A stretch of 41,535 bases of DNA from Bacteroidales bacterium (GTDB lineage: Bacteria > Bacteroidota > Bacteroidia > Bacteroidales > UBA1556): assembly GCA_015493685.1 (NCBI GenBank), contig WGCS01000012.1:1-41535 (forward strand), read 5' to 3'. Below are positions 15,529 to 40,018 of this stretch, piece by piece (position 1 is the first letter of the stretch; each line of letters begins with the position of its first letter). Both the position numbers and the translations under genes were made by a program. The notes under the pieces were generated by a model that did no database searches, had not been told where the DNA came from, and worked only from the letters and a program-made list of their open reading frames with translations.

Positions 15529-17967
15529 ATGAAGATACTTTTTACTTTTCTTGCCGGCTTTTTATTCATCAATCTTATTAATCTAAATTCAGTTAAGGCT
15601 CAATCTTTTTTGCCTTATGCCAATGATAATTATTCCGGCGTTACCGGGATGTTTTATAATCCGGCTACCATAGCAGATAGCCGTTATAAGTTTGATATGG
15701 AACTTGCTGGTTTCTCCACAAGAATTGAAAATAACTGGTGGGCAATGGACCCTTCAGTATTGTATAAACCGGCTCAAATAAAAGACACCAACTTTCTCGA
15801 AAAGTATTTTAGCCCTATTCAAAATAGAGATTCAAAATATGTTATGCAGGCCTTTGAAGTGCGTCTGCTTAGTTTTATGGTGAATTTGAATAATAAGTCT
15901 GCACTGGGTTTTAGTATTAGAGCAAGGCAAATGATTAACTTCGATAATCTTGATCCTGATGCGGCTGATTTAATATTAAGTAAGAATAATGTGAGTGATT
16001 TATTCAGACATAATCTGGATTATAAAAATATGTCGCAAAGTGCTGTTGCGTGGGCAGAATACGGATTGTCCTATTCAAGGATACTTATTGATAACAAAAA
16101 GAACTTCCTTAAGGCAGGGATTACTGCTAAATTACTTCAAGGTATTGGAGCTATTTACCTTTACGAAAAAGAGATGAATTATTATCTTAATGATCAGGAT
16201 ACAGCCTTTAATGCTTATGCTGATGTTAAGTTTGGAGCAACCAGCAACTTCGAAGATATTCTTAAATATAAATTTGCTGCGATTCCTAGTATTGGTGGTG
16301 ATTTTGGATTTGTGTACGAATATCGTCCCAACTACAAAAAGTATCTTTATGATATGAATGGTAAAACTAATCTATGGAGAAAAGATCAAAATAAGTATCT
16401 TTTTAAAGTTGGGTTTTCCGTACTTGATTTAGGCTCTATGAAGTTTAAAAAAGAGTTTAATGGCAACGATTTTATTATTAATCAAGATACTATTGATTTT
16501 AATTCCATTGATGTTAATAATATTAAAGATCTGGCCGATAGTCTTAACAAAGATGGTGTGGTAGTAGGTACCGACCCTTATTTTAATTATCGTTTACCCA
16601 CAACTCTAAATCTAAATATTGATTATCGGGTAGCAAATCATTTTTATGTAAATTTATCCGGAAGATTGGCTTTAAATCAAGGGATAAAGCACTATTCAAA
16701 AGCCCATTATCTTAATTCGCTAAGTTTAACTCCACGTTATGAGAGTCGTTGGTTTGGGGCTGCTTTGCCTATGCGTTATAATCAGTTGAAAGAGTTTAAT
16801 GTGGGTTTGGGTTTGCGTCTGGGGCCACTGTGGGTAGGAAGTAATAATTTACTTGGGCTGACCGGTTTACAAAAACAAGTTACCGCAGTAGATTTTTATA
16901 TGGCCATTAAGATACCAATTTTATATCATGCGCCAAGAGATGCTGATAAAGATAAAGTCTCTGACGATTTGGATGAATGTCCTTATGATACTGGAAGCTG
17001 GAAGCTTAAAGGTTGCCCCGATTCTGATGGTGACGGAATAATTAACAAACTCGACGATTGTGCTTATACTGCTGGCTTGGCCAAGTTTCATGGTTGTCCC
17101 GATACCGATGGTGATGGAGTGCAAGATAAGTTGGATGAATGCCCTGATGTGGCTGGCTCTAAATTGTATGCCGGTTGTCCTGATACTGATGGCGACGGAA
17201 TAATAGATAAAAATGATACTTGTCCTCGTTTGGCAGGACCTAAAGTATTCTTTGGCTGCCCCGATACCGATGGCGATAGTATCCCCGATAATTTAGATGA
17301 TTGCCCCGAAGCTCCCGGCCTATTGGCTTATCATGGCTGCCCCGATACTGACGGTGATGGAATAATTGACGCTATTGATTTATGTCCTAAAGTAGCTGGA
17401 CTGGATAGCCTTCATGGCTGTCCCTATTTGGATACCGATGGGGATAGTATTCAAGATAAATACGACCAATGTCCTAAGGTTGCCGGACCGCGCGATAATG
17501 GGGGTTGCCCTTATGCAGATACCGATCATGATAGCATTCCTGATAAAGATGATCTCTGTCCAATGACTCCCGGACCTGTTTCCAATAATGGCTGTCCCGT
17601 TATTAAGAAAAAAGAACAAGAAATTATAAATACAGCCTTTAGTAATCTTGAATTTGCTACTGCTAAATCTACAATACTTAAATCTTCCTACGCTTCATTG
17701 GATCGTTTGGCCGAATTAATGAATAAAAAACCACAATTCAGACTCCTGATAGAGGGCCATACTGATAATGTGGGTAGAGAAGTAGCCAATATGAGTCTGA
17801 GTCAGAATAGAGCGCTGGCTGTTAAGAGTTTTCTGGTAGCCAAAGGGGTGAAAGCTTCGCGTATCGATACTAAGTGGTATGGCGAATCAAGGCCTATTGC
17901 TGATAATAAGACAGCTAAAGGAAGAGCAAAGAACCGTCGTGTAGAAATGACTGTTATTTTTGATTAA
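15529..17967 (+). CDS. Outer-membrane protein: DUF5723 barrel + TSP3 repeats + OmpA domain
   Basis: 812 aa. The signal peptide ends at VKAQ (residue 25). Residues about 26-465 form a DUF5723-type outer-membrane beta-barrel; the opening 'ANDNYSGVTGMFYNPATIADSRYKFD' region is its hallmark. Residues 471-690 are eight 27-residue thrombospondin type-3 calcium-binding repeats of the form DxDGDGxxDxxDxCP...GCP. Residues about 697-812 are an OmpA/MotB peptidoglycan-binding domain with the diaminopimelate-contacting Asp in EGHTDNVG and Arg in SQNRALAV. The protein probably links the outer membrane to the cell wall through a calcium-stiffened arm. It stands alone behind a 692-nt leader. Resembles major OmpA-like proteins of Bacteroidota; the barrel's ligand is unknown. 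Confidence 0.92.
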   Translation: MKILFTFLAGFLFINLINLNSVKAQSFLPYANDNYSGVTGMFYNPATIADSRYKFDMELAGFSTRIENNWWAMDPSVLYKPAQIKDTNFLEKYFSPIQNRDSKYVMQAFEVRLLSFMVNLNNKSALGFSIRARQMINFDNLDPDAADLILSKNNVSDLFRHNLDYKNMSQSAVAWAEYGLSYSRILIDNKKNFLKAGITAKLLQGIGAIYLYEKEMNYYLNDQDTAFNAYADVKFGATSNFEDILKYKFAAIPSIGGDFGFVYEYRPNYKKYLYDMNGKTNLWRKDQNKYLFKVGFSVLDLGSMKFKKEFNGNDFIINQDTIDFNSIDVNNIKDLADSLNKDGVVVGTDPYFNYRLPTTLNLNIDYRVANHFYVNLSGRLALNQGIKHYSKAHYLNSLSLTPRYESRWFGAALPMRYNQLKEFNVGLGLRLGPLWVGSNNLLGLTGLQKQVTAVDFYMAIKIPILYHAPRDADKDKVSDDLDECPYDTGSWKLKGCPDSDGDGIINKLDDCAYTAGLAKFHGCPDTDGDGVQDKLDECPDVAGSKLYAGCPDTDGDGIIDKNDTCPRLAGPKVFFGCPDTDGDSIPDNLDDCPEAPGLLAYHGCPDTDGDGIIDAIDLCPKVAGLDSLHGCPYLDTDGDSIQDKYDQCPKVAGPRDNGGCPYADTDHDSIPDKDDLCPMTPGPVSNNGCPVIKKKEQEIINTAFSNLEFATAKSTILKSSYASLDRLAELMNKKPQFRLLIEGHTDNVGREVANMSLSQNRALAVKSFLVAKGVKASRIDTKWYGESRPIADNKTAKGRAKNRRVEMTVIFD
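16939..17598 (+). repeat. Eight 81-nt tandem repeats encoding TSP3 modules
   Basis: Eight tandem coding units, each 27 codons (81 nt), with two extra codons inserted before the seventh (Tyr-Leu) and eighth (Tyr-Ala). Each unit carries an Asp-rich calcium loop (DTDGDG or a variant) and two Cys-Pro or Cys-x positions. The first unit (DADKDKVSD) and the eighth (DTDHDSIPD) are the most divergent in the loop. Unit number could vary by recombination between strains. Confidence 0.95.
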
Positions 17968-18327
17968 ATATAAGAACACTTATGTTGATAAATAGTTTGA
18001 CAATGGAAAATGCAACTTTAACGGCTATTCTCTTGTCTGTGAAATTATATTTTAAGTAAAGGAAAATACGCGTATATTAGCTGCATAAATAATTGTTGCT
18101 TTTTTTCGCAATATATAGCACAAACTAATGACACAAAACCAAATGTTAGATTTTCAATGTTTACAGGGATATTGTATGCTCAGGCGGTGGTGTTTTATAT
18201 GTTTAAAATATATTAATTCGGTAATATGGAGTTACATTACAATATTTTAATTATGCCCTTTGGGTCAATTTACGATTAAAAATTGTCATGCTTGTTTCAT
18301 ACTACCAAAACATAAATTGATAAGGAT
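17968..18327 (+). other. 360-nt non-coding region before the PorE-like gene
   Basis: AT-rich, no credible gene, and no exact TAnnTTTG box on the plus strand, unlike most other gene starts here. No terminator with a T-run follows the OmpA gene. What drives the downstream gene is not visible. Confidence 0.45.
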
Positions 18328-20826
18328 ATGAATGTGAGTAAAACCCTAATTGTATTATTAATCTTAATGGTTCCATTTGTTTCAATTGCACAAACAGCAA
18401 AGGATGCAGATAATGATTTTAAATACGAGCAGTACGCCAGCGCCTTGCCATTGTATAAAAAAGCTTATTCTAAAACTAAGAATAAAGTAGAGAAAAAGCG
18501 GATTATGTTTCAAATAGCTGAGTGTTATCGTCTTACTAAAAATACTAAAAAGGCAGAGACTCAATATCGTAGGTTGATACGAGCCAAATATCCTGATCCT
18601 ATAGTGCATTTATACATGGCCGAAGTGCTTAGAGACCAAGAAAAGTATCAATTGTCCATACAGGAATATAAAAAATATATTAAGGCTGTTCCGGAAGATC
18701 CCCGTGGTACTCTTGGATTGAAATCCTGTGAAAATGCCATCGATTGGAAAAAAGACCCTACCCGTTATCAAGTGTCTGCTATACCAAAAATAAATAGTAG
18801 AGAAGATGATTTTTCTCCTGCTTATGCGGATAAAAAATTTAGGTCTATTATGTTTTCTTCTTCGCGTAAAGATGTTGGTAATAAAATTGACCCGAATACC
18901 GGATTAGGATATACATCAATACTGATAACTCAAAAAGATGCTAAAGGCAATTGGTCCAGGCCCGTTTTGTTAGATAAGGACGGAAAGATTAATTCTGATA
19001 ATGCCAATAACGGTTCTGCTGTTTTTAATAGAAAGTTTAATACCCTGTATTTTACTCGTTGTATGGTAGCTAAAAAAGCCATATTAGGTTGTGGTATTTT
19101 TACTTCTTCCAAAAGAGGTAAAACATGGTCAGATCCTGTTTTGTTGCCCATAGCCGCTGATAGCATCAGAGTAGGGCATCCTGCTATTTCTAAAAATGAA
19201 AAGATAATGTATTTTGCTTCTGATTTACCCAATGGATATGGAGGAAGAGATATCTGGGTTGTAAAGAGAAGAAGAAAGAATAAAGCTTTTGGCAAGCCTA
19301 GAAATTTGGGCGAAGCAATTAATAGTAGTGGAGACGAAAGATATCCTACTTTGCGTCAAATGCGCGATGGTCATACTTATTTGTATTTTACCTCCAATGG
19401 TAGAGGTGGTATGGGGGGATGGGATATGTTCCGCTCAGAGTTGGTGGAAGGAAAATGGACTCCTGCTGTTAATTTAGGTTACCCTCTAAACTCTTCTTCC
19501 GACGACTTTGGTATCGTTTTTAGCGGTTCGCGTAAACTTAAAAAAGAACTTTCTACACGTCAGGTTATCAACTGCGAAGAAATGGGATTCTTTACCACTA
19601 ATCGCCCGGGAGGTAGAGGTAGATTTGATATCTGGGAGTTCTGGCTTCCTGAAATTGTTTTCACCCTTGCCGGAACAATCCGTGATGATCAAAGCTTGCA
19701 ATATTTACCCAAGGCTAAAGTTCAGCTCTCCGGTTCGGATGGTTCAAGCTTTATTACTACAACAGATCAAAGAGGTTACTATTTCTTTAATAAGGAACAG
19801 ATTTCTAAAAATACTACCTATACAATTAAAGTGTCTCATTCAGGGTATTTTGATAATTCCGGTACTGAAACCACCGTTGGAAGAAAACATAGTGAAGATA
19901 TTGTTCTTAATATTAAACTTGAACCTATTCCAAAAGAACCTATTCCTTTGCCTGAAATTCGCTACGACTTGGCCGATTGGCATCTTAAACCTCAGTATCA
20001 AGATTCATTGAATGGCTTGATTAGTATTATGAAAAATAATCCAACCTTTGTTATTGAACTGGCCTCTCATACTGACTATAGAGACTCCGAAGAGAATAAT
20101 AATAAGTTGAGTTATAAAAGAGCTAAGGAAGTGGTTGATTATCTTGGAACCAAAGGTATTGACTTGGAGAGAATGGTGCCCAAAGGTTATGGTGAAAATA
20201 GTCCTCGTAAGTTGTATAAAGGCTATAAATTTACTGCAGGACCTTACAAAGGTGTTAGCTTTGCCCCCGGAACAGTACTTACTGAACAATTTATTAAAAG
20301 TTTAGCTAGTAAAAAGCAGCAAGAGGCTGCAAATCAGTTAAATAGGAGAACAGAGTTCAGTATCTTACGCGATGATTATGTGCCTAAAAATTCCAATGAC
20401 AGTCTCAATCTCGATAGCATGAAGATAGAGATGAATCCCAATGAAAATAATGTACCTTTTGAAATGATTAATGATACTATTTTTGCGGAATGTATTATCG
20501 ATGGAAATACGTATAAATTTGCTTTCAATGGCCCTGATCCTGATCTTAAATTATCACTGGATGCTGTGATGGGATTGATACGCCAACATAAGCTTAGCAA
20601 AAATAGTTTTGATAATGGAGCCAAAGCCTTTACCGAGGATGGTACCATTAAAGATGGAGAGAAATTTATTATTCAGAGAATGCGAATAGGTGATAAAACA
20701 GTTTATGACCAAACCGCCATCTGCGTCCATGGACAGTCGGCAGCCGTTTCTCTTGGTGATGAAGTGCTTTCAGACTTCGCTGATTATTCCATTGATGAAG
20801 CTAAGAAAATAATTATCTTTGAATAG
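18328..20826 (+). CDS. PorE-like T9SS-associated protein (TPR-PD40-CRD-OmpA) with extra C-terminal domain
   Basis: 832 aa. Signal peptide to about residue 22 (VSIAQ). Residues about 25-140 are TPR helices; 155-440 a WD40-like PD40 propeller with FSPAYADKKFRSIMFSSSR, GHPAISKNEKIMYFASD and GDERYPTLR repeats; 444-540 a carboxypeptidase-regulatory-like beta domain (FTLAGTIRDD...LPKAKVQL); about 545-690 an OmpA domain (ELASHTDYRD, SYKRAKEVVDYL). This order is that of P. gingivalis PorE, a periplasmic/outer-membrane T9SS component that binds peptidoglycan, though Bacteroidota often carry several paralogues, so the exact role is uncertain. Residues about 710-832 are an added domain that resembles a retropepsin-like aspartic protease fold without its catalytic motif. 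A strong terminator follows. Confidence 0.85.
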   Translation: MNVSKTLIVLLILMVPFVSIAQTAKDADNDFKYEQYASALPLYKKAYSKTKNKVEKKRIMFQIAECYRLTKNTKKAETQYRRLIRAKYPDPIVHLYMAEVLRDQEKYQLSIQEYKKYIKAVPEDPRGTLGLKSCENAIDWKKDPTRYQVSAIPKINSREDDFSPAYADKKFRSIMFSSSRKDVGNKIDPNTGLGYTSILITQKDAKGNWSRPVLLDKDGKINSDNANNGSAVFNRKFNTLYFTRCMVAKKAILGCGIFTSSKRGKTWSDPVLLPIAADSIRVGHPAISKNEKIMYFASDLPNGYGGRDIWVVKRRRKNKAFGKPRNLGEAINSSGDERYPTLRQMRDGHTYLYFTSNGRGGMGGWDMFRSELVEGKWTPAVNLGYPLNSSSDDFGIVFSGSRKLKKELSTRQVINCEEMGFFTTNRPGGRGRFDIWEFWLPEIVFTLAGTIRDDQSLQYLPKAKVQLSGSDGSSFITTTDQRGYYFFNKEQISKNTTYTIKVSHSGYFDNSGTETTVGRKHSEDIVLNIKLEPIPKEPIPLPEIRYDLADWHLKPQYQDSLNGLISIMKNNPTFVIELASHTDYRDSEENNNKLSYKRAKEVVDYLGTKGIDLERMVPKGYGENSPRKLYKGYKFTAGPYKGVSFAPGTVLTEQFIKSLASKKQQEAANQLNRRTEFSILRDDYVPKNSNDSLNLDSMKIEMNPNENNVPFEMINDTIFAECIIDGNTYKFAFNGPDPDLKLSLDAVMGLIRQHKLSKNSFDNGAKAFTEDGTIKDGEKFIIQRMRIGDKTVYDQTAICVHGQSAAVSLGDEVLSDFADYSIDEAKKIIIFE

Positions 20827-25648: not shown

Positions 25649-25805
25649 GCTTTTATAATACTATGAACCGAATACTGATGATAAGGCACAAGCTATGACA
25701 ATTTTTAATCCTAAGTTGACCCACAAGGTCATGATTAAAAAATTCTCTTGTAACTCATATTATCGAAATACTAAATTTCAAAAATATAAATCTTAAGCTT
25801 TGACT

Positions 25806-28181
25806 ATGATTATTACTAAGAGGGTTTGTACATTACTGTTCATATTCTTTACGCTGTCTGTTAGTGGGCAGCAGATACCAAAATATACCATCAGTGGATA
25901 TATAAAAGATGCTGGTAGTGGCGAAGATTTGATAGGAGCAATGATGAGGGTTAAACAGTTGCCTTCTGTGGGCGCCATAAGCAATATGTATGGTTTTTTT
26001 TCATTGACACTGCCACAGGGAAAATATACTATTGACTTCTCATTTGTTGGCTATCAAACTAAAGAGATGATAATAAATCTGGAAAAAAGTATTACTCTGG
26101 ATGTTAGTTTGGCTAATGCCTCGAGAAATATTAAAGGAGTTGAAATTACTGCCGAGCGTTCCGATGCAAATATCAGTAGTCCTGAAATGAGTGTTGCTAA
26201 AGTTAGTATCAAAGAAGTGGATAAAATTCCTGTTATTTTCGGAGAACGCGATGTTATGAAGACCATCCAATTGCTGCCGGGTATTAAAAGCGAAGGCGAT
26301 GGTGGTGCCGGATTTTTTGTGAGAGGTGGCAGTGCTGATCAAAATTTAATTCTCCTTGACGAAGCTCCCGTTTATAATGCCTCGCACATGTTGGGCTTTT
26401 TCTCCGTCTTCAATTCAGATGCATTGAAAGATGTTAAGCTATATAAAGGTGGTATGCCGGCAAAATACGGAGGAAGACTTTCTTCGGTAATGGATATCAA
26501 AATGAAAGAAGGAAACAACAAGGTTTATCAAGTTAATGGTGGTATTGGAATTATTGCTTCTAAACTTAGTGTGCAAGGCCCAATTGTTAAAGATAAAGGT
26601 TCATTTATTGTTAGTGGTAGGAGAACTTATGCAGATATGTTTTTGGCATTGTCGCCCAATGCGAGCCAGAGAAATAGTGTGTTGTATTTTTATGATCTTA
26701 ATATGAAGGCAAATTATCAGATTTCAAATAGAGATAGGGTTTATCTCTCAGCCTATCTGGGACGTGATAGATTTGGCTTCGATAATAACTTTGGCTTTAA
26801 TTGGGGCAATAAAACAACCTCTTTGCGGTGGAATCATTTGTTTAGCGATAAATTATTTTCCAATACTACCTTGCTTTATAGTGATTATAATTATGTTTTT
26901 AAAGCTACTTTCAACAATAGAACCATTGAGGCGGGTTCCGATATTGAAGATTACAATCTGAAAGAAGATTTCCAGTATTTTATTAATAGTAAAAATAAAA
27001 TGACTTTTGGAGGCAATATTATTTACCATACTTTTACTCCCGGAGATATTAGCGTGGATGGGGTTATTCAGCCCGATAATACCCTGGAAAAGCGATATAG
27101 CATTGAGAGTGCATTATATATTTCTAATGAGCAGAAGCTAACAAAATATTTTCAAGTAACTTATGGACTTCGGTATTCTAACTTTACTCAAATTGGACCG
27201 GGAAATATTTATACTTTTAATAATAATGGCCAACTAATAGGGACAAAAGAATATGCTAAAGGACAGAAAGTTAAATCATATAATGGCTTGGCACCCCGCT
27301 TGTCAGCTTTGTATATCCTTAATCCTAAAAGCTCTATTAAAGCTTCGTATGCGCGTACCTATCAATATCTTCATTTGGTGTCGAATAGTACGAGTAGTAC
27401 TCCTACCGATGTTTGGTTGCCAAGTTCCAACAACATTAAACCCGAAATTGCAGATCAAGTGGCATTGGGTTATTTTCGTAATTTTAAAAATAACCGCTTT
27501 GAATTTTCTGCTGAAATATATTACAAAAAGATTCAACACTCAATTGATTATCGTGTAGGCGCAGAAGTGAATTTCAATCCATTTGTTGAAGGAGATTTGC
27601 TCTATGGTAATGGTAGAGCTTATGGGTTGGAATTATTGTTTAAAAAACGAATGGGAAAACTAAGTGGGTGGCTGAGTTATACACTTTCAAGGGTAGAAAA
27701 GCGCTTTGACGAAATTAATAATAATAGCTGGTATCCGGCCAGACAAGATAGAACACACGATATTGCCATTGTTTTGATGTATGATATTACAGAGAGACTT
27801 AATGTTGCTGCCACTTGGGTGTACTATACCGGTAGTGCGGTTACTTTCCCCTCAGGAAAATACATGATTAATGGAATGATAGTAAATTATTATACCGAAA
27901 GAAATGGCTATAGAATGCCTGCTTATCATCGGCTCGATATTGGTGTTAATTGGGAAGGTAAAAAATATAAATACAGAATCAATCCCCTTACTAAAATACG
28001 TGAGAAAGTTAAAAAGCGTTTCCTCTCCAGCTGGAATATCTCCCTATATAATGCCTATGGACATGAAAATGCGTATTCTATCTCATTCAGGGTAAATAAA
28101 GATGATCCCAATAAAACTGAAGCCGTACAGCTATCTTTATTCCGTTTTGTGCCTTCAATATCATATAACTTTAAATTTTAA
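25806..28181 (+). CDS. TonB-dependent receptor with carboxypeptidase-regulatory-like domain
   Basis: 791 aa outer-membrane receptor. The ATG at 25806 gives a good signal peptide (IITKRVCTLLFIFFTLSVSG) ending near residue 22; an in-frame TTG 6 nt upstream is less likely. Residues about 26-115 are a carboxypeptidase-regulatory-like/SusC-type N-terminal beta-sandwich (YTISGYIKDAGSGEDLIGAMM...GFFSLTLPQGKYTIDFSFVGYQ). The plug follows (GERDVMKTIQLLPGIKS, FFVRGGSADQNLILLDEAPVYN). The remaining residues form a 22-strand-type barrel ending in aromatic FKF, as outer-membrane proteins do. It lies 5 nt before the DUF4249 lipoprotein, its usual partner in Bacteroidota. Substrate unknown. Confidence 0.92.
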   Translation: MIITKRVCTLLFIFFTLSVSGQQIPKYTISGYIKDAGSGEDLIGAMMRVKQLPSVGAISNMYGFFSLTLPQGKYTIDFSFVGYQTKEMIINLEKSITLDVSLANASRNIKGVEITAERSDANISSPEMSVAKVSIKEVDKIPVIFGERDVMKTIQLLPGIKSEGDGGAGFFVRGGSADQNLILLDEAPVYNASHMLGFFSVFNSDALKDVKLYKGGMPAKYGGRLSSVMDIKMKEGNNKVYQVNGGIGIIASKLSVQGPIVKDKGSFIVSGRRTYADMFLALSPNASQRNSVLYFYDLNMKANYQISNRDRVYLSAYLGRDRFGFDNNFGFNWGNKTTSLRWNHLFSDKLFSNTTLLYSDYNYVFKATFNNRTIEAGSDIEDYNLKEDFQYFINSKNKMTFGGNIIYHTFTPGDISVDGVIQPDNTLEKRYSIESALYISNEQKLTKYFQVTYGLRYSNFTQIGPGNIYTFNNNGQLIGTKEYAKGQKVKSYNGLAPRLSALYILNPKSSIKASYARTYQYLHLVSNSTSSTPTDVWLPSSNNIKPEIADQVALGYFRNFKNNRFEFSAEIYYKKIQHSIDYRVGAEVNFNPFVEGDLLYGNGRAYGLELLFKKRMGKLSGWLSYTLSRVEKRFDEINNNSWYPARQDRTHDIAIVLMYDITERLNVAATWVYYTGSAVTFPSGKYMINGMIVNYYTERNGYRMPAYHRLDIGVNWEGKKYKYRINPLTKIREKVKKRFLSSWNISLYNAYGHENAYSISFRVNKDDPNKTEAVQLSLFRFVPSISYNFKF

Positions 28182-28186
28182 TTATT

Positions 28187-28996
28187 ATGAGTTTTGTTAA
28201 ACTAGCGTTTTTCTTTTCGTCCATATTGCTTGTTACTGCTTGTACTAAAGTTATTCAAGTGGATCTCAATAAAGCCAATCAGCGTATTGTTGTGGATGGA
28301 ACATTGTCCTTAGCCAAAAAGGATAGTACAGATTTACAAGCTGTAGTTCGCCTAAGTCGTACCGGCAGCTTTTACGAAAATAATAGCTTCGATACCATTT
28401 CTAAGGCTAATTTATATATTAAAACGCCCAATGGCAATTCATTTCCATTGCATTATGTAGGAAAAGGTGTTTTTGAGAATAATACAGTCCCCAATGGAAA
28501 AACGAAGGATGATTATACCTTATATGGGACCATTGAAGGAGTGAAGATATCGGCCAAGTCAAGCATGCCGGATTTTTGTCCAATAGATTCTATTGGAGCT
28601 TATTATTTGCCCTTTGGGCCCCCGCATAAACTTTCTCAGTTAACACCAATTTGTTTTTTTACCGATATTCCTAATGAAGCAAATTATTATCGACTAGAGA
28701 TAAAGATTAATGGTCATCAGCTCGAAGGCCTATACATTAGTCGTGATGATGGGCAAGATGGTAAAATGATTGCATATCCTTTTATTAAGGTGCATATATT
28801 AAAGGGTGACACACTCAATATTAGCTTATTATCGATGGACAAGGCTTCATTTGATTATTATAAGGTATTGAAACAAAATATAGGCTCGGGAGGCTTTGGG
28901 GCAGCACCAGGAAATCCTAACTCCAATATTGAAGGTAATGTAATTGGTATTTTTACCGCTCAAACAGTCTCCAGCAAGACGCTTATTATAAGGTAG
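28187..28996 (+). CDS. DUF4249 family lipoprotein
   Basis: 269 aa. Lipoprotein signal with lipobox VTAC (Cys19), preceded by a hydrophobic stretch. The mature start TKVIQVDLNKANQRIVVDGTLS is the hallmark of DUF4249, whose members sit beside TonB-dependent receptors and are thought to act as surface-associated partners, with no proven substrate. The rest is beta-rich. The gene starts 5 nt after the receptor and ends directly against the next gene. At about 270 aa it is within the short end of the family. Confidence 0.88.
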   Translation: MSFVKLAFFFSSILLVTACTKVIQVDLNKANQRIVVDGTLSLAKKDSTDLQAVVRLSRTGSFYENNSFDTISKANLYIKTPNGNSFPLHYVGKGVFENNTVPNGKTKDDYTLYGTIEGVKISAKSSMPDFCPIDSIGAYYLPFGPPHKLSQLTPICFFTDIPNEANYYRLEIKINGHQLEGLYISRDDGQDGKMIAYPFIKVHILKGDTLNISLLSMDKASFDYYKVLKQNIGSGGFGAAPGNPNSNIEGNVIGIFTAQTVSSKTLIIR

Positions 28997-30413: not shown

Positions 30414-30421
30414 TATTTTTG
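30414..30421 (+). promoter_or_regulatory. -7 box candidate before the TonB/T9SS/PorV operon
   Basis: TATTTTTG matches TAnnTTTG exactly, 46 nt before the ATG at 30468. No clear -33 element. Confidence 0.4.
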
Positions 30422-30467: not shown

Positions 30468-33400
30468 ATGATTCGAAAGTTACTATTGTCAACCATGATT
30501 CTGTTTGCTTCAGTTTTTGCTTATGCTCAATCTGGAACACTACAAGGTAAAGTTACCGATAAGGATTCTAAAGAGCCAATCCCATTTGCAAATGTTGTTG
30601 TTGAACTTGGAGGTAAAGTAGTCAATGGAGGAACAACTGATATTGATGGAAAATATAAAATTAAACCAATTCAACCGGGGAAATATAACGTTAAAGTTAG
30701 TTATGTTGGTTATAAAAAGAAACTGTATGAAGGGGTTATCATTAACGCCAATAAGATTCGTTTCTTAAATATTGAATTGGAATCTTCGGCTACAAATCTT
30801 GACGTTTTTGAAGTGGTAGAATATAAAGTTCCTCTTATTGACAAGGATCAGACTTCTTCAGGAAGTACAATGACATCGGAAGAAATTTCTAAAATGCCTA
30901 GTCGCTCAGCAAATGCTGTTGCCGTTACTGTAGGTGGTGTGTTTTCTAATGAGAATGGTAAAATGGGTGGTATGCGTGGTGGACGTCCTGATGGTACTGC
31001 TACTTATATTGATGGAATAAGAGTAATTGGTTCTTCCACATTACCCAGCTCAGCAATTGATCAGGTAGCTGTTATCACCGGTGGAACTCCCGCTATGTAT
31101 GGTGACCTTACGGGTGGTATTGTTAATATTACTACCAAAGGGCCATCGCGTACTTTTGGTGCCAGTTTAGAGGGAGCTACTTCTGAACTATTAGATGGAT
31201 ATGGTTATAATATGGCTGGCTTTAGCGTTAACGGTCCGCTTATTAAAGGTAAAGATTCTACCAAATCAACTTCACTATTGGGATTCTTTATTTCAGGAGA
31301 AGGCAATTATATCGTTGATAATCGTCCGGCAGCAGGAGGTACTTATGAGGTTAATGCCCAAAAATTAGCCTATCTTCGGAAGAATCCTGTGCGTCCAACA
31401 GGTACCGGTTTTGGGTCGTTTCCTAATTCCGAATATATCCATAGTGATGACCTAGTTAATCACCATACTCGAATTAATGCTCAAAGTATGTCTGCCAGCT
31501 TTGCCGGTAAAATTGACGTGAGAACAACAGAAAATACTAATCTTAGTTTTGGGGGTTCTTTCAACTGGAGTAAACGAGCTCAATGGTCTGCCCTAAATAC
31601 CTTGTTTAATCCCGATAATAATGGGGAAAGAAAAGATCAAACTTGGCGCGTTTATGGTAAATTTACACAGCGATTTCCTACTGCCAAAGAGAGTAAATCA
31701 ATTGTTAAAAATGTGTATTATAGTTTGCAAGCTGATTATTCAAGAAATACCATTAATATATATAACCCTCACCATGGTGATAATTTGTTTGATTATGGAT
31801 ATGTTGGTAAATTTACAACGCATTCAGTAAAATCGTATGAATTGGGAAATGATACCGTGGCAGGTCTCACCAATGTATATATTCACAATGGATCCAGAGA
31901 TACTTTATACGAATTTCAACGATCTGAAATCAATCCTAATTTATCTAATTACACCGATCAATACTATTCATTATATCAAGGGAATGCTTTTTATAGAAAT
32001 ATTCTTGCCGTACAAAATGGGGGAGCACTTCTGAATGGTCAGTTGCCTAATTTTGTATATGGAGATAGTCGAAGTGGTTTGTTTAGGAATACCGGAACAC
32101 CTTATAATGGGTATGCTGTTTTTGATGATTCTCGTTTTGGCTTTAATGCCAGTGGTTCAGCAGACGTGGGAGACCATGAGTTGCAGTTTGGATTACAATA
32201 CGAACAACGAAAAGAAACCGGTGTAAATTATAATCCTGCAGGTTTATGGACTTTAATGCGTGGTATTACTAATAGGCATATTTTGCAATTGGATTATGCT
32301 CATCCCATATTAGTTAAAGATGCTAATGGAGTTTTTCAAGATACAATTAATTATAATCGTTTATATGATGCTAATACCCAAGCTTATTTTGATAAACAAT
32401 TAAGAAAAAAATTGGGTTTACCCGTAGATGGTACTCAGTGGATTGATATTGATAGTTACGACCCAAGTACCTTTAGTATGAATATGTTCAGCGCCGATGA
32501 ATTGTTAAATAGTGGTAAACCTTATGTTGATTACTATGGCTATGATCCTTATGGCAATAAGTTAAAAGGACGTCCCGCTTTTGATGACTTTTTTAATGAA
32601 ATAAATAGTGAAGGAAATCATACTCGCGTTATTGGTGCTTATGAACCAATTTATGTGGCCGGATATTTACAAGATAGATTTGCTATTAATGATTTGATTT
32701 TTACTGTTGGCTTACGTTTCGATCGCTTCGATGCTAACCAGAAAGTACTTAAAGATCCTTACCTATTTGCTCAAGCGAAGACAGTTAAAGAAATTAAGCC
32801 CGGTGAGTTTGGTACCATCCCAAGTAATATGGGTCAAGATTATGTTGTTTATGTTAATGATGTTAATAATCCTTCTTCTATTGTTGGGTATCGCAGTGGG
32901 AGTACTTGGTATAATTCAAAAGGAACCGAAGTTGGAGATCCAACAAGTCTTGAGACTGCCTCAGGAATTGCTCCTTACCTTGTGGATCCAAATAGTAAAA
33001 CGGTTAAGGCTACTGCCTTTAAAGATTATAATCCGCAAAATACATTCTCACCACGTATTTCATTTTCATTTCCTATTTCGGATGAGGCCTTGTTTTTTGC
33101 CCATTACGATGTGTTAACCTCACGTCCCACAGGAGATAGAAATAGAATTCCAATGCTTGATTATTATTTTATTAATCAGGTGGGAAATATAGCAATTAAT
33201 AATCCTAATCTTCGTCCTGAGCGAACTACTGATTATGAACTTGGTTTCCAACAGAAATTAACAAATTCTTCATCCATTAAATTTTCTGCCTATTACCGCG
33301 AAAATAGAGACCAGATTCAAGTATATCGCTATACTGATGCTTATCCTGTGTCCTATATTTCGTATAATAATGTGGACTTTGGCACAACAAAAGGTTTTAC

Positions 33401-34130
33401 CCTTACCTATGAATTGAGAAGAACTAAAAATCTGTGGATGCGTGCAAGTTATACCCTTCAATTTGCCAATGCCACAGGTTCTAGCGCTACCTCAGGGATT
33501 AATCTTGTAACTTCAGGTCAACCTAATCTTCGTACTCTTAATCCTATTAATGAGGATAGAAATCATACCATTAATATTATTACTGATTACCGATATGGTA
33601 GAGGAAAAAAATACAATGGACCTACCATTACGCGAAGAATAAAAGGAACGGATAAAGTTAAGGTAATTCGTATTCTTGAAAGTACCGGATTTAATGCGGT
33701 ATTCTCCGGTGGTAGTGGCGTTCCTTACAGCCGTCAGAGTAATGTAACAAGTGCTATACTTGGTGGTAATAGTCCGGTCCTAAAAGGTTCTATCAATGGA
33801 TCGCGTTTGCCTTGGCAATATAGGATGGATTTGAAAATTGACAGAGATTTTTATTTCAAAAGAAAAGAAGGTAGTAAGAAAAATCCACATTATTTAAATG
33901 TTTATCTACAAGTACTTAATGTTTTTGACGCTAGAAATATTATTAGTGTTTATCGTTATACCGGTAACCCCAATGATGATGGATATTTATCAGCAGCAGA
34001 ATATCAATCATCAATCTATGCCAAAAATGATCCACAAGCATTTAAAGATCTTTATTCAGTAAGAGTTAATAATCCATATAATTATAGTTATCCAAGAAGA
34101 ATACGTTTAGGTGTAATCTTTAACTTCTAA
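30468..34130 (+). CDS. Large TonB-dependent receptor (carboxypeptidase-regulatory-like N-terminus)
   Basis: 1220 aa outer-membrane receptor, much longer than the 791-aa one upstream. The signal peptide ends near FAYAQ (residue 21). Residues about 24-108 are a carboxypeptidase-regulatory-like domain (GTLQGKVTDKDSKEPIPFANVVV...YVGYKK). The plug is about 130-225 (SKMPSRSANAVAVTVGGV, MRGGRPDGTATYIDGIRV, AMYGDLTGGIVNITTK). The barrel covers the rest, with large Tyr/Asp/Asn-rich extracellular loops, and ends in RIRLGVIFNF. It is the first gene of a tight operon: 24 nt to the T9SS cargo and 28 nt from that to the PorV-like gene. Such a set suggests the receptor works with the secreted protein; substrate unknown. 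Confidence 0.92.
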   Translation: MIRKLLLSTMILFASVFAYAQSGTLQGKVTDKDSKEPIPFANVVVELGGKVVNGGTTDIDGKYKIKPIQPGKYNVKVSYVGYKKKLYEGVIINANKIRFLNIELESSATNLDVFEVVEYKVPLIDKDQTSSGSTMTSEEISKMPSRSANAVAVTVGGVFSNENGKMGGMRGGRPDGTATYIDGIRVIGSSTLPSSAIDQVAVITGGTPAMYGDLTGGIVNITTKGPSRTFGASLEGATSELLDGYGYNMAGFSVNGPLIKGKDSTKSTSLLGFFISGEGNYIVDNRPAAGGTYEVNAQKLAYLRKNPVRPTGTGFGSFPNSEYIHSDDLVNHHTRINAQSMSASFAGKIDVRTTENTNLSFGGSFNWSKRAQWSALNTLFNPDNNGERKDQTWRVYGKFTQRFPTAKESKSIVKNVYYSLQADYSRNTINIYNPHHGDNLFDYGYVGKFTTHSVKSYELGNDTVAGLTNVYIHNGSRDTLYEFQRSEINPNLSNYTDQYYSLYQGNAFYRNILAVQNGGALLNGQLPNFVYGDSRSGLFRNTGTPYNGYAVFDDSRFGFNASGSADVGDHELQFGLQYEQRKETGVNYNPAGLWTLMRGITNRHILQLDYAHPILVKDANGVFQDTINYNRLYDANTQAYFDKQLRKKLGLPVDGTQWIDIDSYDPSTFSMNMFSADELLNSGKPYVDYYGYDPYGNKLKGRPAFDDFFNEINSEGNHTRVIGAYEPIYVAGYLQDRFAINDLIFTVGLRFDRFDANQKVLKDPYLFAQAKTVKEIKPGEFGTIPSNMGQDYVVYVNDVNNPSSIVGYRSGSTWYNSKGTEVGDPTSLETASGIAPYLVDPNSKTVKATAFKDYNPQNTFSPRISFSFPISDEALFFAHYDVLTSRPTGDRNRIPMLDYYFINQVGNIAINNPNLRPERTTDYELGFQQKLTNSSSIKFSAYYRENRDQIQVYRYTDAYPVSYISYNNVDFGTTKGFTLTYELRRTKNLWMRASYTLQFANATGSSATSGINLVTSGQPNLRTLNPINEDRNHTINIITDYRYGRGKKYNGPTITRRIKGTDKVKVIRILESTGFNAVFSGGSGVPYSRQSNVTSAILGGNSPVLKGSINGSRLPWQYRMDLKIDRDFYFKRKEGSKKNPHYLNVYLQVLNVFDARNIISVYRYTGNPNDDGYLSAAEYQSSIYAKNDPQAFKDLYSVRVNNPYNYSYPRRIRLGVIFNF

Positions 34131-34154
34131 AACGAAACAAATAATATTTCAATT

Positions 34155-37100
34155 ATGAAGAAATTAATTAGCATATTTGCCCTTAGCCTCATCGCTTTGT
34201 TTATTAGCGGAAATATTTTTGCCCGCAATATTCATGATAATGAAAGAGGGGCGAGAAAAAGTTCTAAAGCTAGAACCGGAGCTGCAGCAGGTTGTTTGCC
34301 AGCAAAAGCTTCTTCCGAAGTTAATATTAATAATGTGCGTGCCCGAATTATGACTGGTGGTGATATGTGGTGGGATTTACAGGGAATATCGAAGTATGAG
34401 ATACCCAAAGGATCTACTAAAACATCCATGTTTTCCGGTTCCTTATGGCTAGGTGGTACCGATGTTAACGGTCAGCTAAAAGGTGCATTTCAACGATATA
34501 GAGGAAACGGTAATGATTATTGGCCTGGACCTTTAACTACAGATGGAACTGCTAGTATTACTGCTGATGTTTGTGCTGAGTATGATAAACTCTTTGTTAT
34601 TACTCGTCAGGAAGTGGATGATTTTCGTTTAAAATATAATAATCCTAATTATCCTGACTATACCGTACCCGATATTATTAAAAACTGGCCCACTACCGGT
34701 GATGTAGCTCGTGGTCAGAGTCAGTGGCTCGCGCCTTTCGTTGATCTTAATCACGATGGCCTTTACGAATGGCAACAAGGTGAATATCCTTATTATGATA
34801 TTACAAATCATCTTTGTAAGCCATCAAAAGATGCTAATGGTCATTATTACTATGAGAAAACTCCAGAAGGAGGTATTCTTGCGGACCAGGTGCTGAAAGG
34901 AGACCAAACTGTTTGGTGGATTTTTAACGATAATGGGAATATTCATACCGAATCAAAAGGTAATGCTATTGGTGTTGAAATTAGAGCTCAAGCGTTTGCA
35001 TTCTCTACCAATGACGAAATTAATAATATGACTTTTTATTCCTATGAGATTATCAATAGGTCAACATATCGTTTGACAAATACTTATTTTAGTCAATGGG
35101 TTGATACGGATTTAGGATATTCTGATGATGATTATGTAGGTTGTGATGTGAGTAGAGGTTTAGGATATTGCTATAATGGTAAAGCCGTTGATGGTAATGG
35201 TAAGAAAAATCAATATGGTATTCAACCACCTGCTGTTGGTGTCGATTTCTTTCAAGGACCTTATATGGATCCCGATGGAATTGACAATCCAAAATATGAT
35301 TCCAATCACGTTCAAATTTGTGATGAAAGTATCAATGGGGTTAACTTCGGTGACTCTATCATCGATAATGAACGTTTTGGAATGAGAAAATTTGTGTATC
35401 ACAACCGTCCTCCTTTTGGTACTAGTGCTACTCAAGATCCGACCTTGGCCCCGGAATACTATCAGTTTTTACGTGGTATCTGGAAAGATGGAACAAGAAT
35501 GACCTATGGTGGTGATGCACACAATACGGGTGGACCTATTTGTGATTTTATGTTTCCTGACCTAACCGATCCTTGTGATTGGGGTACAGGTGGCGTTACT
35601 CCAAGTCCTAAAAAATGGACAGAGGAGACTTCTAATAATGCTCCCGGTGATCGTCGTTTTATGCAGTCTGCAGGGGAGTTTACTTTAGAGTCAGGGGCTA
35701 TTAATTATATTACCGTTGGTATTCCTTGGGCTCGTGCTTCTGCCGGTGGTCCTTTTGCTTCAGTGCAATTGCTTCGTCAAGTAGATGATAAAGCCCAAGC
35801 TTTATTTAACAACTGTTTTAAAGTATTGGATGGTCCTGATGCGCCGGAAGTGGTTACTCAAGAACTTGATAGAACAATAATTCTGTATCTTAAAAATTTA
35901 CAATCGTCCAATAATAGTGATGAGAATTATAAAGAAGAAGATGTTACAATTTCAGCATTGAATAATGATACAACACATTATGATCCTTATTATCATTTCC
36001 AAGGATATCAAATTTATCAGTTGGCAAACTCAGAGGTTTCTGTCTCACAATTACGCGATCCTAATAAAGCGCGTTTGGTTGCTGAATGCGATTTGAAGGA
36101 TACTGTTAAGAATTTAGTGAATTATGTTTGGAATGATAAAATAGGAGGTAATGTTCCTGAGTTGATGGTTCAAGCTAACAATAAAGGTATTTCACATTCC
36201 TTTAAGATTACTGAAGACAAATTTGCTACAGGAGATGTAAGATTGGTTAATAATAAAAAATATTATTTCGTTGCCATCGCCTATTCTGCTAATAATTATG
36301 CTGTTTATTCTCAAGACCCCGGCTATCTTAATGGATTATTAGGGCAGAAGAAGACTTACCTTGCAGGAAGAAAATCAGCTACGGGAGCCATAAAAGTTCA
36401 TACGGTTATTCCTCATATTCCTGATCCTGAAGCCTCCGGTACAATTGCCGGCGCAGCGTATGGTGCCGGTCCAGTTATTACCCGCCTTGATGGACGTGGT
36501 AATGGAGGTAATGAACTTGAGTTTACTGATAAAACTAAAGCTAAAATACTTGCAGATAACGCAGTAGTTAAAGTGCAATACACAAATGGGCATGGACCTA
36601 TTGATGTTAAAGTTATTGATCCTCTTAATGTAGAAAACGCCGAATATATTCTTAAGTTTCTGCATCCGCAGAATTCAAGTATTGATACGGCCTCTTGGGA
36701 ATTGTATAAGAATGGGCAACTTATTGTTGATACTTCTGAAACAAATATTTCAATAAGTAATGAGCAATTATTATTGGATGAAGGTTTAAGTATTACCATT
36801 AAACAAAATAAAGGTGTTGGTGAGACTTCTCTTCCTTCAAATGGATTTATTTCAGCTAAAATTGTATATCAAGATAGCTCACATCGTTGGTTAGGCGGTT
36901 TTCCGGATATTGACGGAATGCCGGACTTAAATCCTTCAACCCCAAGTGAATTTAATTGGATTCGCTCTGGAACATTGGATGATAAAAACAAGTCATTTCA
37001 TAATGACTATGATCCTTCTCCAATGCCTTGGATTGATCCTGCAGAGGTTTTTGAAAAAGTTATTGGAGCAACTTGGGCACCATATCGATTAGCTTCAATA

Positions 37101-38204
37101 TATAAGAATGGACCTGCCGGTACTGCTACTCATAAAACGTATAAGATATCTATTACTGAGAGTGTTGATGTTGTATTTACTAGTGATAAGAGTAAATGGA
37201 CAAGGTGTGTTGTTGTTGAAACAGGTGATGATCCTACTGCCAGTGAAGGTGGAGTTAAAAAATTCCATTTGAGAGCACATAATTCCATTGATAAAGAGGG
37301 TAATTATGCTGTTAGCGGTTCAGGTTCACAAGACTCTAATCCTGATGCGGCAAACTATATTGCTGAAAAAGGTATGGGCTGGTTCCCGGGTTATGCTATC
37401 AGTCTTGAAAGTGGTGAACGTTTGAATATTATGTTCGGTGAATCTTCTTGGTTGGTTGGAGAAAATGGTCGCGATATGAAGTTTAATCCTACATCACATT
37501 TTACTACCCCTATAGGTGGAGTATTGATGGGTGGAAAACATTTCTTATATATCTTACGTCATTCCCCCGATGCTAACGGTTGCCCTGCTTATGATAAAGG
37601 CAAGTGGTTATATAATCATTTGAAAGGGAATCCCAATAGTATTAAACTGATGCAAGTACACAGAGAAATTATGTGGACAAGTATTCCAATGGCTATTCAA
37701 GGTGAACAATGGTTACAAAATGATGCTACTGTTCGATTAAGAGTCAATTATCCTTATAAACAAGGCGTTTGGAGTATGAAGAATCCTACTATGACAGATC
37801 CCGGCTATAACGATCATTACCCTGCATATTCATTTAATACGGGTAATATAGCTACCATTAAGAATAATCTTTCTCAAGCCAAGAGTGCTTTGGATTTGAT
37901 TAGAGCTGTGCCTAACCCTTATTATGCATTTTCTAAGTATGAAACCGATCAGCTTGATAATAGAGTTAGAATTACTAATCTGCCGGAGCTCTGTACTGTT
38001 AGTATTTATTCTACCAATGGTATTTTAGTGCGTCGATTTAAAAAAGACGAAACCAATACTTATCTTGATTGGGATTTGAAAAATAGTGCCAATATTCCAA
38101 TTGCTAGTGGTGTTTATTTTATTCATATTGATGCTCCAAATATTGGGGAGAAGGTGATTAAATGGTTTGGCGTTCTTCGTCCAGTTGATTTAAATGCATT
38201 TTAA
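34155..38204 (+). CDS. Very large T9SS-sorted secreted protein
   Basis: 1349 aa. Signal peptide to about residue 23 (GNIFARN). The body is beta-rich with no enzyme motif that I recognise; early segments INNVRARIMTGGDMWWD, SMFSGSLWLGGTDVNG and FVDLNHDGLYEWQQGEYPYY, and IEIRAQAFAF/NNMTFYSYEIINRS-like strands suggest several beta domains. From about residue 1247 a T9SS type A sorting domain begins (AVPNPYYAFSKYETDQLDNRVRI, VSIYSTNGILVRRF, IPIASGVYFIHI), ending KVIKWFGVLRPVDLNAF. So it is exported across the outer membrane by T9SS. Codon use looks like its neighbours. Its place between a TonB receptor and a PorV/PorQ-like protein hints at a dedicated surface assembly. Confidence 0.88.
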   Translation: MKKLISIFALSLIALFISGNIFARNIHDNERGARKSSKARTGAAAGCLPAKASSEVNINNVRARIMTGGDMWWDLQGISKYEIPKGSTKTSMFSGSLWLGGTDVNGQLKGAFQRYRGNGNDYWPGPLTTDGTASITADVCAEYDKLFVITRQEVDDFRLKYNNPNYPDYTVPDIIKNWPTTGDVARGQSQWLAPFVDLNHDGLYEWQQGEYPYYDITNHLCKPSKDANGHYYYEKTPEGGILADQVLKGDQTVWWIFNDNGNIHTESKGNAIGVEIRAQAFAFSTNDEINNMTFYSYEIINRSTYRLTNTYFSQWVDTDLGYSDDDYVGCDVSRGLGYCYNGKAVDGNGKKNQYGIQPPAVGVDFFQGPYMDPDGIDNPKYDSNHVQICDESINGVNFGDSIIDNERFGMRKFVYHNRPPFGTSATQDPTLAPEYYQFLRGIWKDGTRMTYGGDAHNTGGPICDFMFPDLTDPCDWGTGGVTPSPKKWTEETSNNAPGDRRFMQSAGEFTLESGAINYITVGIPWARASAGGPFASVQLLRQVDDKAQALFNNCFKVLDGPDAPEVVTQELDRTIILYLKNLQSSNNSDENYKEEDVTISALNNDTTHYDPYYHFQGYQIYQLANSEVSVSQLRDPNKARLVAECDLKDTVKNLVNYVWNDKIGGNVPELMVQANNKGISHSFKITEDKFATGDVRLVNNKKYYFVAIAYSANNYAVYSQDPGYLNGLLGQKKTYLAGRKSATGAIKVHTVIPHIPDPEASGTIAGAAYGAGPVITRLDGRGNGGNELEFTDKTKAKILADNAVVKVQYTNGHGPIDVKVIDPLNVENAEYILKFLHPQNSSIDTASWELYKNGQLIVDTSETNISISNEQLLLDEGLSITIKQNKGVGETSLPSNGFISAKIVYQDSSHRWLGGFPDIDGMPDLNPSTPSEFNWIRSGTLDDKNKSFHNDYDPSPMPWIDPAEVFEKVIGATWAPYRLASIYKNGPAGTATHKTYKISITESVDVVFTSDKSKWTRCVVVETGDDPTASEGGVKKFHLRAHNSIDKEGNYAVSGSGSQDSNPDAANYIAEKGMGWFPGYAISLESGERLNIMFGESSWLVGENGRDMKFNPTSHFTTPIGGVLMGGKHFLYILRHSPDANGCPAYDKGKWLYNHLKGNPNSIKLMQVHREIMWTSIPMAIQGEQWLQNDATVRLRVNYPYKQGVWSMKNPTMTDPGYNDHYPAYSFNTGNIATIKNNLSQAKSALDLIRAVPNPYYAFSKYETDQLDNRVRITNLPELCTVSIYSTNGILVRRFKKDETNTYLDWDLKNSANIPIASGVYFIHIDAPNIGEKVIKWFGVLRPVDLNAF

Positions 38205-38232
38205 TTTATAGAAACTCAAAACAATTCATATA

Positions 38233-39288
38233 ATGAGAAAAGTTTATAAAATTTTGATGATTAGTCTTGTGTTTGCACTCTTTGCCGGACAGACAGCTAC
38301 TGCCGGAAATAAAGATCGTGTAGGAGAAGCAGGTGCTGGTCAGTTATTGATTAATCCATGGGTTAGAAGTAGTGGACTTGGTGGATCTAATTCTGCTTAT
38401 ATTAGTGGCTTAGAGGCCCAGTTTCTAAATGTTGCAGGTATTGCCAGAACACGTTCTACAGAACTTATCTTTGCACATACATCATGGCTTGTGGGTACAG
38501 GTACTAGTATCTCAAGTTTTGGAATTACACAAAAATTAGGTAAAGAAGGGGGCGTTTTGGGGTTGTCGGTTATGTCGCTTTCTTTTGGTGATATTCCTAT
38601 TACTACAGTAAGTCAGCCGGAGGGTGGAATAGGTACATTCTCTCCTAAGCAGAGTAATGTTAATATTTCTTATGCTAAGGCTTTCTCCAATAGTATCTAC
38701 GCCGGTGTTACCGTTAAAATAGTTAGTGAATCTACGTCTTCTACAAAAGCTTCTACTGTTGCTATTGATGCAGGTATTCAGTATGTTACCGGTAAACACG
38801 ATCAATTTAAGTTCGGTGTTGCACTCAAAAATGTTGGTCCTAATATGAAATATACCGGTGATGGTCTTTCTTTTAGAGGTTTTGTTCCCGGTCAGGTTAA
38901 TGCCCTTACTGTTGAGCAACGTTCTGCCGGATTCGAATTGCCTACTTTAATTCGTATTGGTGTTTCCTATGATTTGATTTTATCAGATAATATTAAACTT
39001 ATTCCTTCTTATACTTTTACTTCTAATTCCTTTACTAACGATCAGCATTCTGTTGGCGTTGAATTAAGATGGAGCAAGTATTTAGTATTACGGGGTGGTT
39101 ATACTTACGAAAATGATCTCCTTAATACTTCTAAGAAGATTAATGCATTGACAGGTTTTGCCATGGGAATATCCATTGAAGCTCCATTTAACAAAGGTGA
39201 TGAAGCCGGTTTTTCCATAGATTATGCATACCAAACTACTAACCCTTTTGCAGGGGTGCATAGTATTGGAGTTAGACTACATTTGTAG
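38233..39288 (+). CDS. PorV/PorQ family outer-membrane protein
   Basis: 351 aa. Signal peptide to about residue 24 (TATAG). The opening GEAGAGQLLINPWVRSSGLGGSNSAYISGLEAQFLNVAGIA is the PorV/PorQ family hallmark (family FadL-like 14-strand barrel). PorV shuttles T9SS cargo from the translocon to the attachment complex; PorQ works with PorZ in that complex. Members beside a cargo gene are likely partners for that cargo. Which of the two roles applies cannot be read from sequence, and several paralogues are usual. The gene ends 60 nt before the stem-loop at 39349-39381 and is the last of the operon. Confidence 0.88.
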   Translation: MRKVYKILMISLVFALFAGQTATAGNKDRVGEAGAGQLLINPWVRSSGLGGSNSAYISGLEAQFLNVAGIARTRSTELIFAHTSWLVGTGTSISSFGITQKLGKEGGVLGLSVMSLSFGDIPITTVSQPEGGIGTFSPKQSNVNISYAKAFSNSIYAGVTVKIVSESTSSTKASTVAIDAGIQYVTGKHDQFKFGVALKNVGPNMKYTGDGLSFRGFVPGQVNALTVEQRSAGFELPTLIRIGVSYDLILSDNIKLIPSYTFTSNSFTNDQHSVGVELRWSKYLVLRGGYTYENDLLNTSKKINALTGFAMGISIEAPFNKGDEAGFSIDYAYQTTNPFAGVHSIGVRLHL

Positions 39289-39348: not shown

Positions 39349-39381
39349 AAATCAGAAGACTATTTTATAGTCTTCTGATTT
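39349..39381 (+). terminator. Strong hairpin after the PorV-like gene
   Basis: AAATCAGAAGACTA, loop TTTTA, TAGTCTTCTGATTT: a perfect 14-bp stem. It is followed by ATTATTTAG, not a clean T-run, apart from the T's inside the stem end. Probably ends the TonB/T9SS/PorV transcript, but see the promoter immediately upstream. Confidence 0.65.
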
Positions 39382-39541: not shown

Positions 39542-40018
39542 ATGGCCGAAACACAGTATTTTTCAGCAGAAGGACTAGAGAGAATTAAGAATGAATTGAC
39601 TGAATTAATAAGCGTGCAACGCTCGGCTATTTCTCAGCAAATTGCCGAAGCTAGAGATAAAGGCGACTTATCTGAAAATGCAGAATACGATGCGGCTAAA
39701 GAGGCCCAAGGCTTATTGGAACTTAAAATTTCTAAATTGCAAACTATTGTTCAAAATGCTAGAATCATTGATGAGTCTAAAATTGATGATTCAAAAGCCT
39801 TGCTTTTATCTACAGTAACGCTTCGAAATGTTACCAATAAAAAGGAGATGAGTTATACCCTTGTCCCTGAAAAAGAAGCTGATATCCGAAATGGCAAAAT
39901 ATCAGTTAGTTCGCCCATAGCACAAGGAATTTTGGGTAAATCAGTAGGTGATATTGCCGAAATTAGTGTGCCTGCCGGGATTATGAAGTTTGAAATTGTC
40001 AAAATTGAACGTTTATAA
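39542..40018 (+). CDS. greA: Transcription elongation factor GreA
   Basis: 158 aa, standard length. Rescues backtracked RNA polymerase by stimulating transcript cleavage. The N-terminal coiled coil (residues 8-75) carries the acidic tip signature ARDKGDLSENAEYDAAKEAQ, with the Asp and Glu that position metal in the polymerase active site, so it is GreA rather than GreB or an anti-Gre factor. The C-terminal FKBP-like domain ends with SPIAQGILGKSVGDIAEISVPAG. Preceded by 253 nt that hold a promoter candidate and hairpin. The HIT gene follows after 2 nt. Confidence 0.96.
   Translation: MAETQYFSAEGLERIKNELTELISVQRSAISQQIAEARDKGDLSENAEYDAAKEAQGLLELKISKLQTIVQNARIIDESKIDDSKALLLSTVTLRNVTNKKEMSYTLVPEKEADIRNGKISVSSPIAQGILGKSVGDIAEISVPAGIMKFEIVKIERL

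Follow-up and report, generated by a model that had tools for sequence, protein, structure and literature searches.

A recurrent operon encoding a TonB-dependent receptor, a type IX secretion cargo and a PorV-family barrel

Three adjacent genes, encoding a TonB-dependent receptor, a cargo protein of the type IX secretion system (T9SS) and a PorV-family barrel, recur together in the same order across several phyla. The members of this triad diverge together, its barrels form a separate group, its cargos carry a separate class of C-terminal sorting domain (CTD), and the triad occurs alongside T9SS genes. The best reading of the module is that the T9SS exports the cargo, which then stays attached to its own barrel without a covalent link and acts together with the receptor; this reading is about as likely to be right as wrong, and the complex, the retention of the CTD and the ligand are all inferred. 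The original prediction, made on a 41,535 nt stretch of Bacteroidales DNA (contig WGCS01000012.1; the window), had proposed a dedicated surface structure or uptake complex with one barrel, one cargo and one receptor; the genomic evidence supports it, and the complex has not been shown.

The operon lies on the forward strand and contains the receptor gene (1220 aa, 30468-34130), the cargo gene (1349 aa, 34155-38204), which is the sole full-length member of its family in the genome, and the barrel gene (351 aa, 38233-39288). The gaps are 24 nt between receptor and cargo and 28 nt between cargo and barrel. These positions, strand, lengths and gaps match the original prediction exactly, and its claim of a strong hairpin after the last gene also held. 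In particular, a terminator-like hairpin at 39349-39381 (+) closes the operon with a folding energy of -18.6 kcal/mol (z = -4.7), and none of the shuffled sequences was equally stable. The predicted -7 box is present upstream of the operon as the Bacteroidota-type sequence TATTTTTG (30414-30421, +), but it is weak promoter evidence on its own, because TAnnTTTG motifs are common in the window (82 seen, 58 expected). The downstream neighbour, greA (39542-40018, +), is context outside the module.

Two other pairs of genes in the window were also noted. A second TonB receptor (793 aa) is immediately followed by a DUF4249 protein (25800-28996), forming a conventional-looking pair of receptor and surface partner that contrasts with the triad. 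Further, positions 15529 to 20826 encode a protein with DUF5723, thrombospondin type 3 and OmpA regions, followed by a PorE-resembling protein with TPR, carboxypeptidase-like and OmpA regions; this pair may be a peptidoglycan-linked surface anchor.

Loci fetched around matches to cargo relatives and around PorV-family matches yielded 130 triads from Bacteroidota, Zixibacteria, KSB1 and Marinimicrobia. The order is receptor, cargo, barrel in 123 of the 130, with a median gap of 24 nt and 98% of gaps below 150 nt. Some triad records appear in two collections, and removing identical cargos leaves 123 triads, a number equal to the same-order count only by coincidence. Amino acid identities to the window's triad are mostly 20-35% (median 28-33% for the window's members versus the others). 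The original prediction would have been refuted if the three genes were not conserved together in other genomes, and it passed this check. Cargo-centred loci without a triad member are partly explained by contig ends.

The cargo itself is widespread. When it was used as a query against a phylum-wide sample of 371 good genomes, 159 had a relative; a profile of its domain 1 finds a homologue in 272 of 339 good Bacteroidia genomes and, across all 395 sampled genomes, in 151 of 197 genera. A scan of named-species genomes returned at least 556 cargo relatives, the best 80 of which include Flavobacteriales, Bacteroidales, Rhodothermales, Ignavibacteria, Kryptonium, Zixibacteria, KSB1 and Marinimicrobia. 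The greA gene lies downstream of nearly all examined Bacteroidia triads and not of those in other lineages, and the conserved core therefore consists of the three genes. The flanking genes are variable (greA, EngB, a putative multihaem cytochrome and others); no degradative pattern was seen among them, and they do not indicate a substrate. A link to polysaccharide loci was rejected for these reasons.

Several loci and genomes show other arrangements. Among other families of the window's order, the cargo is absent from 13 of 14 sampled genomes (G240, G248, G357, G361 and G404 among them), although most of the class has it, apparently through loss or patchy inheritance. In a Marinimicrobia locus (L175) and in an unclassified MAG (L194), further cargo-like genes lie downstream of the triad's barrel gene. 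Three loci (L235, L314 and L318) contain receptor-barrel pairs with no recognisable cargo, and their barrels form one clade (support 100); the cargo may have gone unrecognised, or the pair may work alone. In the window's genus, paralogues of 570-845 aa (L076-L080) match cargo domain 1 without adjoining triad genes.

The barrel belongs to the PorV family, scoring 150.2 bits against PorV_fam (NCBIfam NF033709; cut-off 90). It was also considered as canonical PorV or as PorQ, and both were rejected by their equivalog scores (64.8 bits against NF033710, cut-off 250; 68.8 bits against NF033711, cut-off 220) and by its placement in the tree. The maximum-likelihood tree places canonical PorV (support 97) and PorQ (100) outside the triad barrels, which group together with moderate support (84); subfamily A, which includes the window's barrel, has a support of 99. 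The window's genome has six PorV_fam members, including canonical PorV, PorQ and a PorV2-like protein. The possibility that the barrel is a general PorV present once per genome, which would also have counted against the original prediction, came out negative on the basis of these six members and the triad barrels' own group. Searched against the PDB, the barrel profile matches PorV (E 2e-23), and short stretches match TodX. PorV-family barrels are part of the FadL superfamily.

Three Ignavibacteria-like genomes carry many divergent copies of the module each. Across 27 non-canonical PorV-family loci fetched from them, 23 are in triads, three are in receptor-barrel pairs and one is PorQ-like; these loci are the top of a hit list and not an exhaustive census. 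Their cargos (subfamily B) score about 50-250 bits to the profile of the window's cargo family, compared to over 700 bits for subfamily A. Elsewhere in the window's genome, on contig C211 (locus L004), the PorV2-like barrel adjoins a 1692-aa PorU-related protein with no receptor, apparently a further case of a PorV-family barrel that has a T9SS-type partner of its own.

The cargo's CTD (37857-38201, +) forms a separate class whose nearest relative is the CTD of PorZ and which is remote from ordinary type A domains. This corrects the original prediction of a type A sorting domain, of which the CTD is not a typical example. Scanned alone, the CTD region exceeds the TIGR04183 family cut-off (25.5 bits; cut-off 23); the whole cargo falls below it (20.9 bits), ranking 99th of the 104 matches in its genome. 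A CTD tree had too few columns to be resolved, and profile scores were used instead; one half of each set went into the profile, and the other half was used for scoring. For the window's CTD, the triad profile gives 146.7 bits and the profile of ordinary type A CTDs 11.4 bits. Moreover, triad CTDs of subfamilies A and B score about 92 bits across subfamilies, against 14 bits for type A, 21 for PorU and 35 for PorZ. The gap does not stem from lineage: when ordinary type A CTDs were taken from non-Bacteroidia FCB genomes, they scored 51 bits to the type A profile and 13 bits to the triad profile.

A scan of 54 CTDs gave a match to the C-terminal part of the PorZ model in every case; none matches TIGR04131 (type B) at E <= 0.01, and 12 weakly match Pfam CHU_C. 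The sole PDB match of the cargo profile is likewise the PorZ CTD, although weak (E 0.04). The window's cargo is not PorZ by the family model (NF052228), which it matches in the CTD region only (33.8 bits; cut-off 260), and no propeller match to the cargo body was found in profile or fold searches.

The cargo's CTD neither resembles the ordinary type A CTDs of this genome nor ends at the last strand: its score is low, and an extension of fixed length, LRPVDLNAF (38175-38201, +), continues past the usual type A end and finishes in F. Subfamily A CTDs have 28 residues after the GxY strand versus 18 in the genome's ordinary type A. Within subfamily A (n = 128), the last residue is F, Y, L, I or W in 125, with Lys at -14 in 124 and Leu at -4 in 101. 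A Trp before the GxY strand is found in 124/128 and 29/35 triad CTDs and is common to PorZ and most PorU, as compared with ordinary type A CTDs (1/30 in this genome and 9/30 elsewhere). Subfamily B CTDs have no extension; the extension therefore cannot be required for barrel pairing, and it was rejected as a pairing signal for all triads.

PorZ and PorU retain their CTDs, the reason for PorZ's retention is an open question, and a review proposes that cognate PorV-like barrels may shield CTDs from cleavage (PMC10202324). However, when the CTD hairpin shared by PorU and PorZ was transplanted from PorZ into RgpB, cleavage by PorU was not stopped (PMC11285876), and so the likeness of the triad CTD to that of PorZ does not prove retention.

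The absence of a recognised enzyme motif from the cargo body, as originally predicted, held: no enzyme domain was found in Pfam or NCBIfam. An AF2 model of residues 45-1240 has a pLDDT of 82.9 and a pTM of 0.69, and one of domain 1 alone (residues 45-575) has a pLDDT of 91.1 and a pTM of 0.90. A fold search with the whole body returned nothing at E <= 0.001, and domain 1 (residues ~45-555; 34287-35819, +) has no whole-domain match in the PDB. It partly resembles sandwich domains from dextran dextrinase and from enzymes of the GH94/GH116 type (best E 3e-6, TM 0.33, rmsd 13.5 A), but too weakly for a function to be assigned; the cargo was thus rejected as an enzyme, and the fold of domain 1 indicates no ligand. 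Domain 1 contains an Asp-rich motif (residues ~316-346, VDTDLGYSDDDYVGCDVSRGLGYCYNGKAVD; 35100-35192, +) with eight positions that are invariant in 54 relatives (D317, D319, G321, D325, D326, D331, N341 and D346). It is a possible Ca2+ site, by inference only.

The receptor has CarboxypepD_reg, Plug and TonB barrel domains in Pfam and qualifies as a TonB-dependent receptor (PF07715, 35.2 bits, cut-off 23.9; PF00593, 48.6 bits, cut-off 27). It belongs to a separate subfamily: a triad-receptor profile scores 1293 bits on the window's receptor versus 134 bits on the next receptor in the genome. A Pfam scan found no SusD domain in the neighbouring cargo, and the pair is not of the SusC/SusD type. 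Within each of the three Ignavibacteria-like genomes, the distances between receptors, cargos and barrels are correlated (r 0.55-0.95, permutation p <= 0.008), which partly reflects the split into subfamilies. For subfamily B alone, pooled, the correlations are r 0.51 between cargo and barrel (p 0.001) and r 0.55 between receptor and cargo (p 0.0014), and that between receptor and barrel is weaker (r 0.24, p 0.06).

The triad generally co-occurs with T9SS genes. Of 78 genomes searched for SprA, 72 have it, among them the tested triad carriers in Zixibacteria, KSB1 and Marinimicrobia; another triad carrier, the L173 MAG (G411), had no SprA match. PorU is present in 37/37 and PorZ in 32/37 triad genomes tested, and the window's genome has SprA, PorV, PorU (1301 bits) and PorZ (628 bits). 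SprA also occurs in genomes without a triad, and thus the T9SS is apparently necessary, not sufficient, for the triad. Cleavage of the cargo's CTD remains possible, because its protease, PorU, occurs in every triad genome tested.

According to the proposed mechanism, the cargo would be exported by Sec and then by the T9SS, as inferred from its CTD and the T9SS genes in the genome. Its CTD would not serve as a general type A signal but would be dealt with by the PorV-family barrel from the adjacent gene, a candidate dedicated shuttle or anchor. Instead of cleavage by PorU and transfer to lipopolysaccharide, the CTD would be kept, leaving the cargo bound non-covalently to the barrel as PorZ is to PorQ. 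The barrel-held cargo would then partner the receptor; its likeliest role is in a TonB-driven transporter, as the surface subunit for ligand capture or gating. In outline, the cargo would be to the receptor what a SusD-type lipoprotein is to SusC, with a different route of export and anchoring. The module is near-ubiquitous in Bacteroidia and has no linked degradative enzymes, which suggests that the inferred substrate is widely needed and not a niche glycan.

Other explanations are compatible with parts of this evidence. It is possible that the module serves attachment or biogenesis rather than uptake, with barrel and cargo forming a PorQ:PorZ-like surface apparatus of general envelope function and the receptor supplying TonB energy or a structural platform. 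The presence of a domain-1 homologue in most good Bacteroidia genomes, the adjoining housekeeping gene (greA) in place of degradative enzymes, and the nearness of the CTD to that of PorZ favour it. However, the many divergent copies in each Ignavibacteria-like genome are better suited to substrate-specific uptake, and the receptor retains ordinary plug and carboxypeptidase-like domains. Alternatively, the three proteins could share one pathway without a three-way complex: canonical PorV would carry an ordinary cargo, which PorU would cleave; the barrel would let a hydrophobic molecule through as a FadL-like channel, and a related molecule would be imported by the receptor. This, too, is possible. 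The FadL superfamily membership of PorV-family barrels, the short TodX matches, the presence of canonical PorV and PorU, and literature in which PorV recognises all type A CTDs (PMC12618676) speak for it. Against it, the cargo's CTD differs widely from the type A CTDs served by PorV, and a separate barrel group is linked to this CTD across phyla and co-diverges with the cargos bearing it.

A neutral neighbourhood, in which history alone, with no functional coupling, accounts for the shared operon, is very unlikely. Its only support is the general fact that gene order persists in close relatives, whereas here the order survives across several phyla between triads of 20-35% identity, despite turnover of the other neighbours, and it is also retained in paralogous copies within genomes. 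Neutral linkage was rejected on these grounds.

A bolder version of the preferred reading, that of a barrel-held cargo working with the receptor, is that the triads are an undescribed general class of FCB surface machine: TonB-driven transporters whose T9SS-delivered extracellular subunit carries a never-cleaved CTD of a third class and is held by it on its own PorV-type barrel. We consider it a little more apt to fail than to hold. If true, the class would offer an alternative to the SusCD design, close to core in Bacteroidia and present in multiple copies in Ignavibacteria-like lineages. The module provides natural pairs of cargo and barrel by the hundreds, with their own CTD class, and it connects type IX secretion with TonB-dependent uptake, the uptake being inferred. 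Most sampled Bacteroidia genomes have a cargo relative, yet the open-access literature searched contains no experimental description of one. No account of the trio was found there either, in line with its original proposal as an undescribed system; subscription papers and preprints were outside the scope, and an earlier description is not excluded.

In the current literature, PorV serves all type A CTDs and cognate barrels are a feature of type B cargos (PMC12618676). By analogy, the triad appears to mix features of PorQ:PorZ, type B/PorP-SprF and SusCD systems, and by the tests run it is a member of none. The PorQ:PorZ and PorU:PorV complexes are precedents (PMC5562754): as in these parts of the Porphyromonas gingivalis T9SS attachment complex, a PorV-family barrel is combined with a surface protein that the T9SS exports. 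The CTDs of PorZ and PorU are retained, and retention in the triad is inferred, its CTD being nearest to that of PorZ. Unlike these complexes, triad barrels lie outside the PorV and PorQ groups and the unit includes a TonB receptor; the cargo body is also unrelated to the PorZ propellers in the searches run. The pairing of type B cargos with PorP/SprF barrels, as in SprB-SprF and PorE-PorP-PG1035, has been shown experimentally (PMC12618676, PMC9143113), and there as well the cargo adjoins its own FadL-family barrel, encoded downstream. In the triad, however, the CTD has no TIGR04131 match, the barrel is PorV_fam instead of PorP/SprF, and a TonB receptor takes the place of PorE.

SusC/SusD and other receptor-lipoprotein pairs resemble the triad in encoding a TonB receptor with a carboxypeptidase-like domain together with a surface partner, but the triad's partner is a T9SS cargo without a SusD domain and its third gene encodes a barrel. 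In the atypical cellulose locus of Cytophaga hutchinsonii (chu_1276-1280), a TonB-type receptor without SusD similarly acts with other outer-membrane proteins; the locus contains glycan-binding proteins and an endoglucanase, with no PorV-like barrel reported (PMC12016534). The locus was rejected as a described triad member on that paper's account and not by sequence alignment. PorV2 with its inactive M6-like peptidase (NF052325, NF052323), a pair apparently present on contig C211, also places a PorV-family barrel beside a T9SS-type protein, but no TonB receptor is seen and the barrel is of a different lineage in the tree. Finally, in the BamG-BamH pair of the Bacteroidota BAM complex, a FadL-like barrel anchors a surface protein (PMC12611786, PMC12578637). 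This likeness is without sequence evidence; unlike the triad cargo, BamH is a lipoprotein, and the BAM complex inserts outer-membrane proteins.
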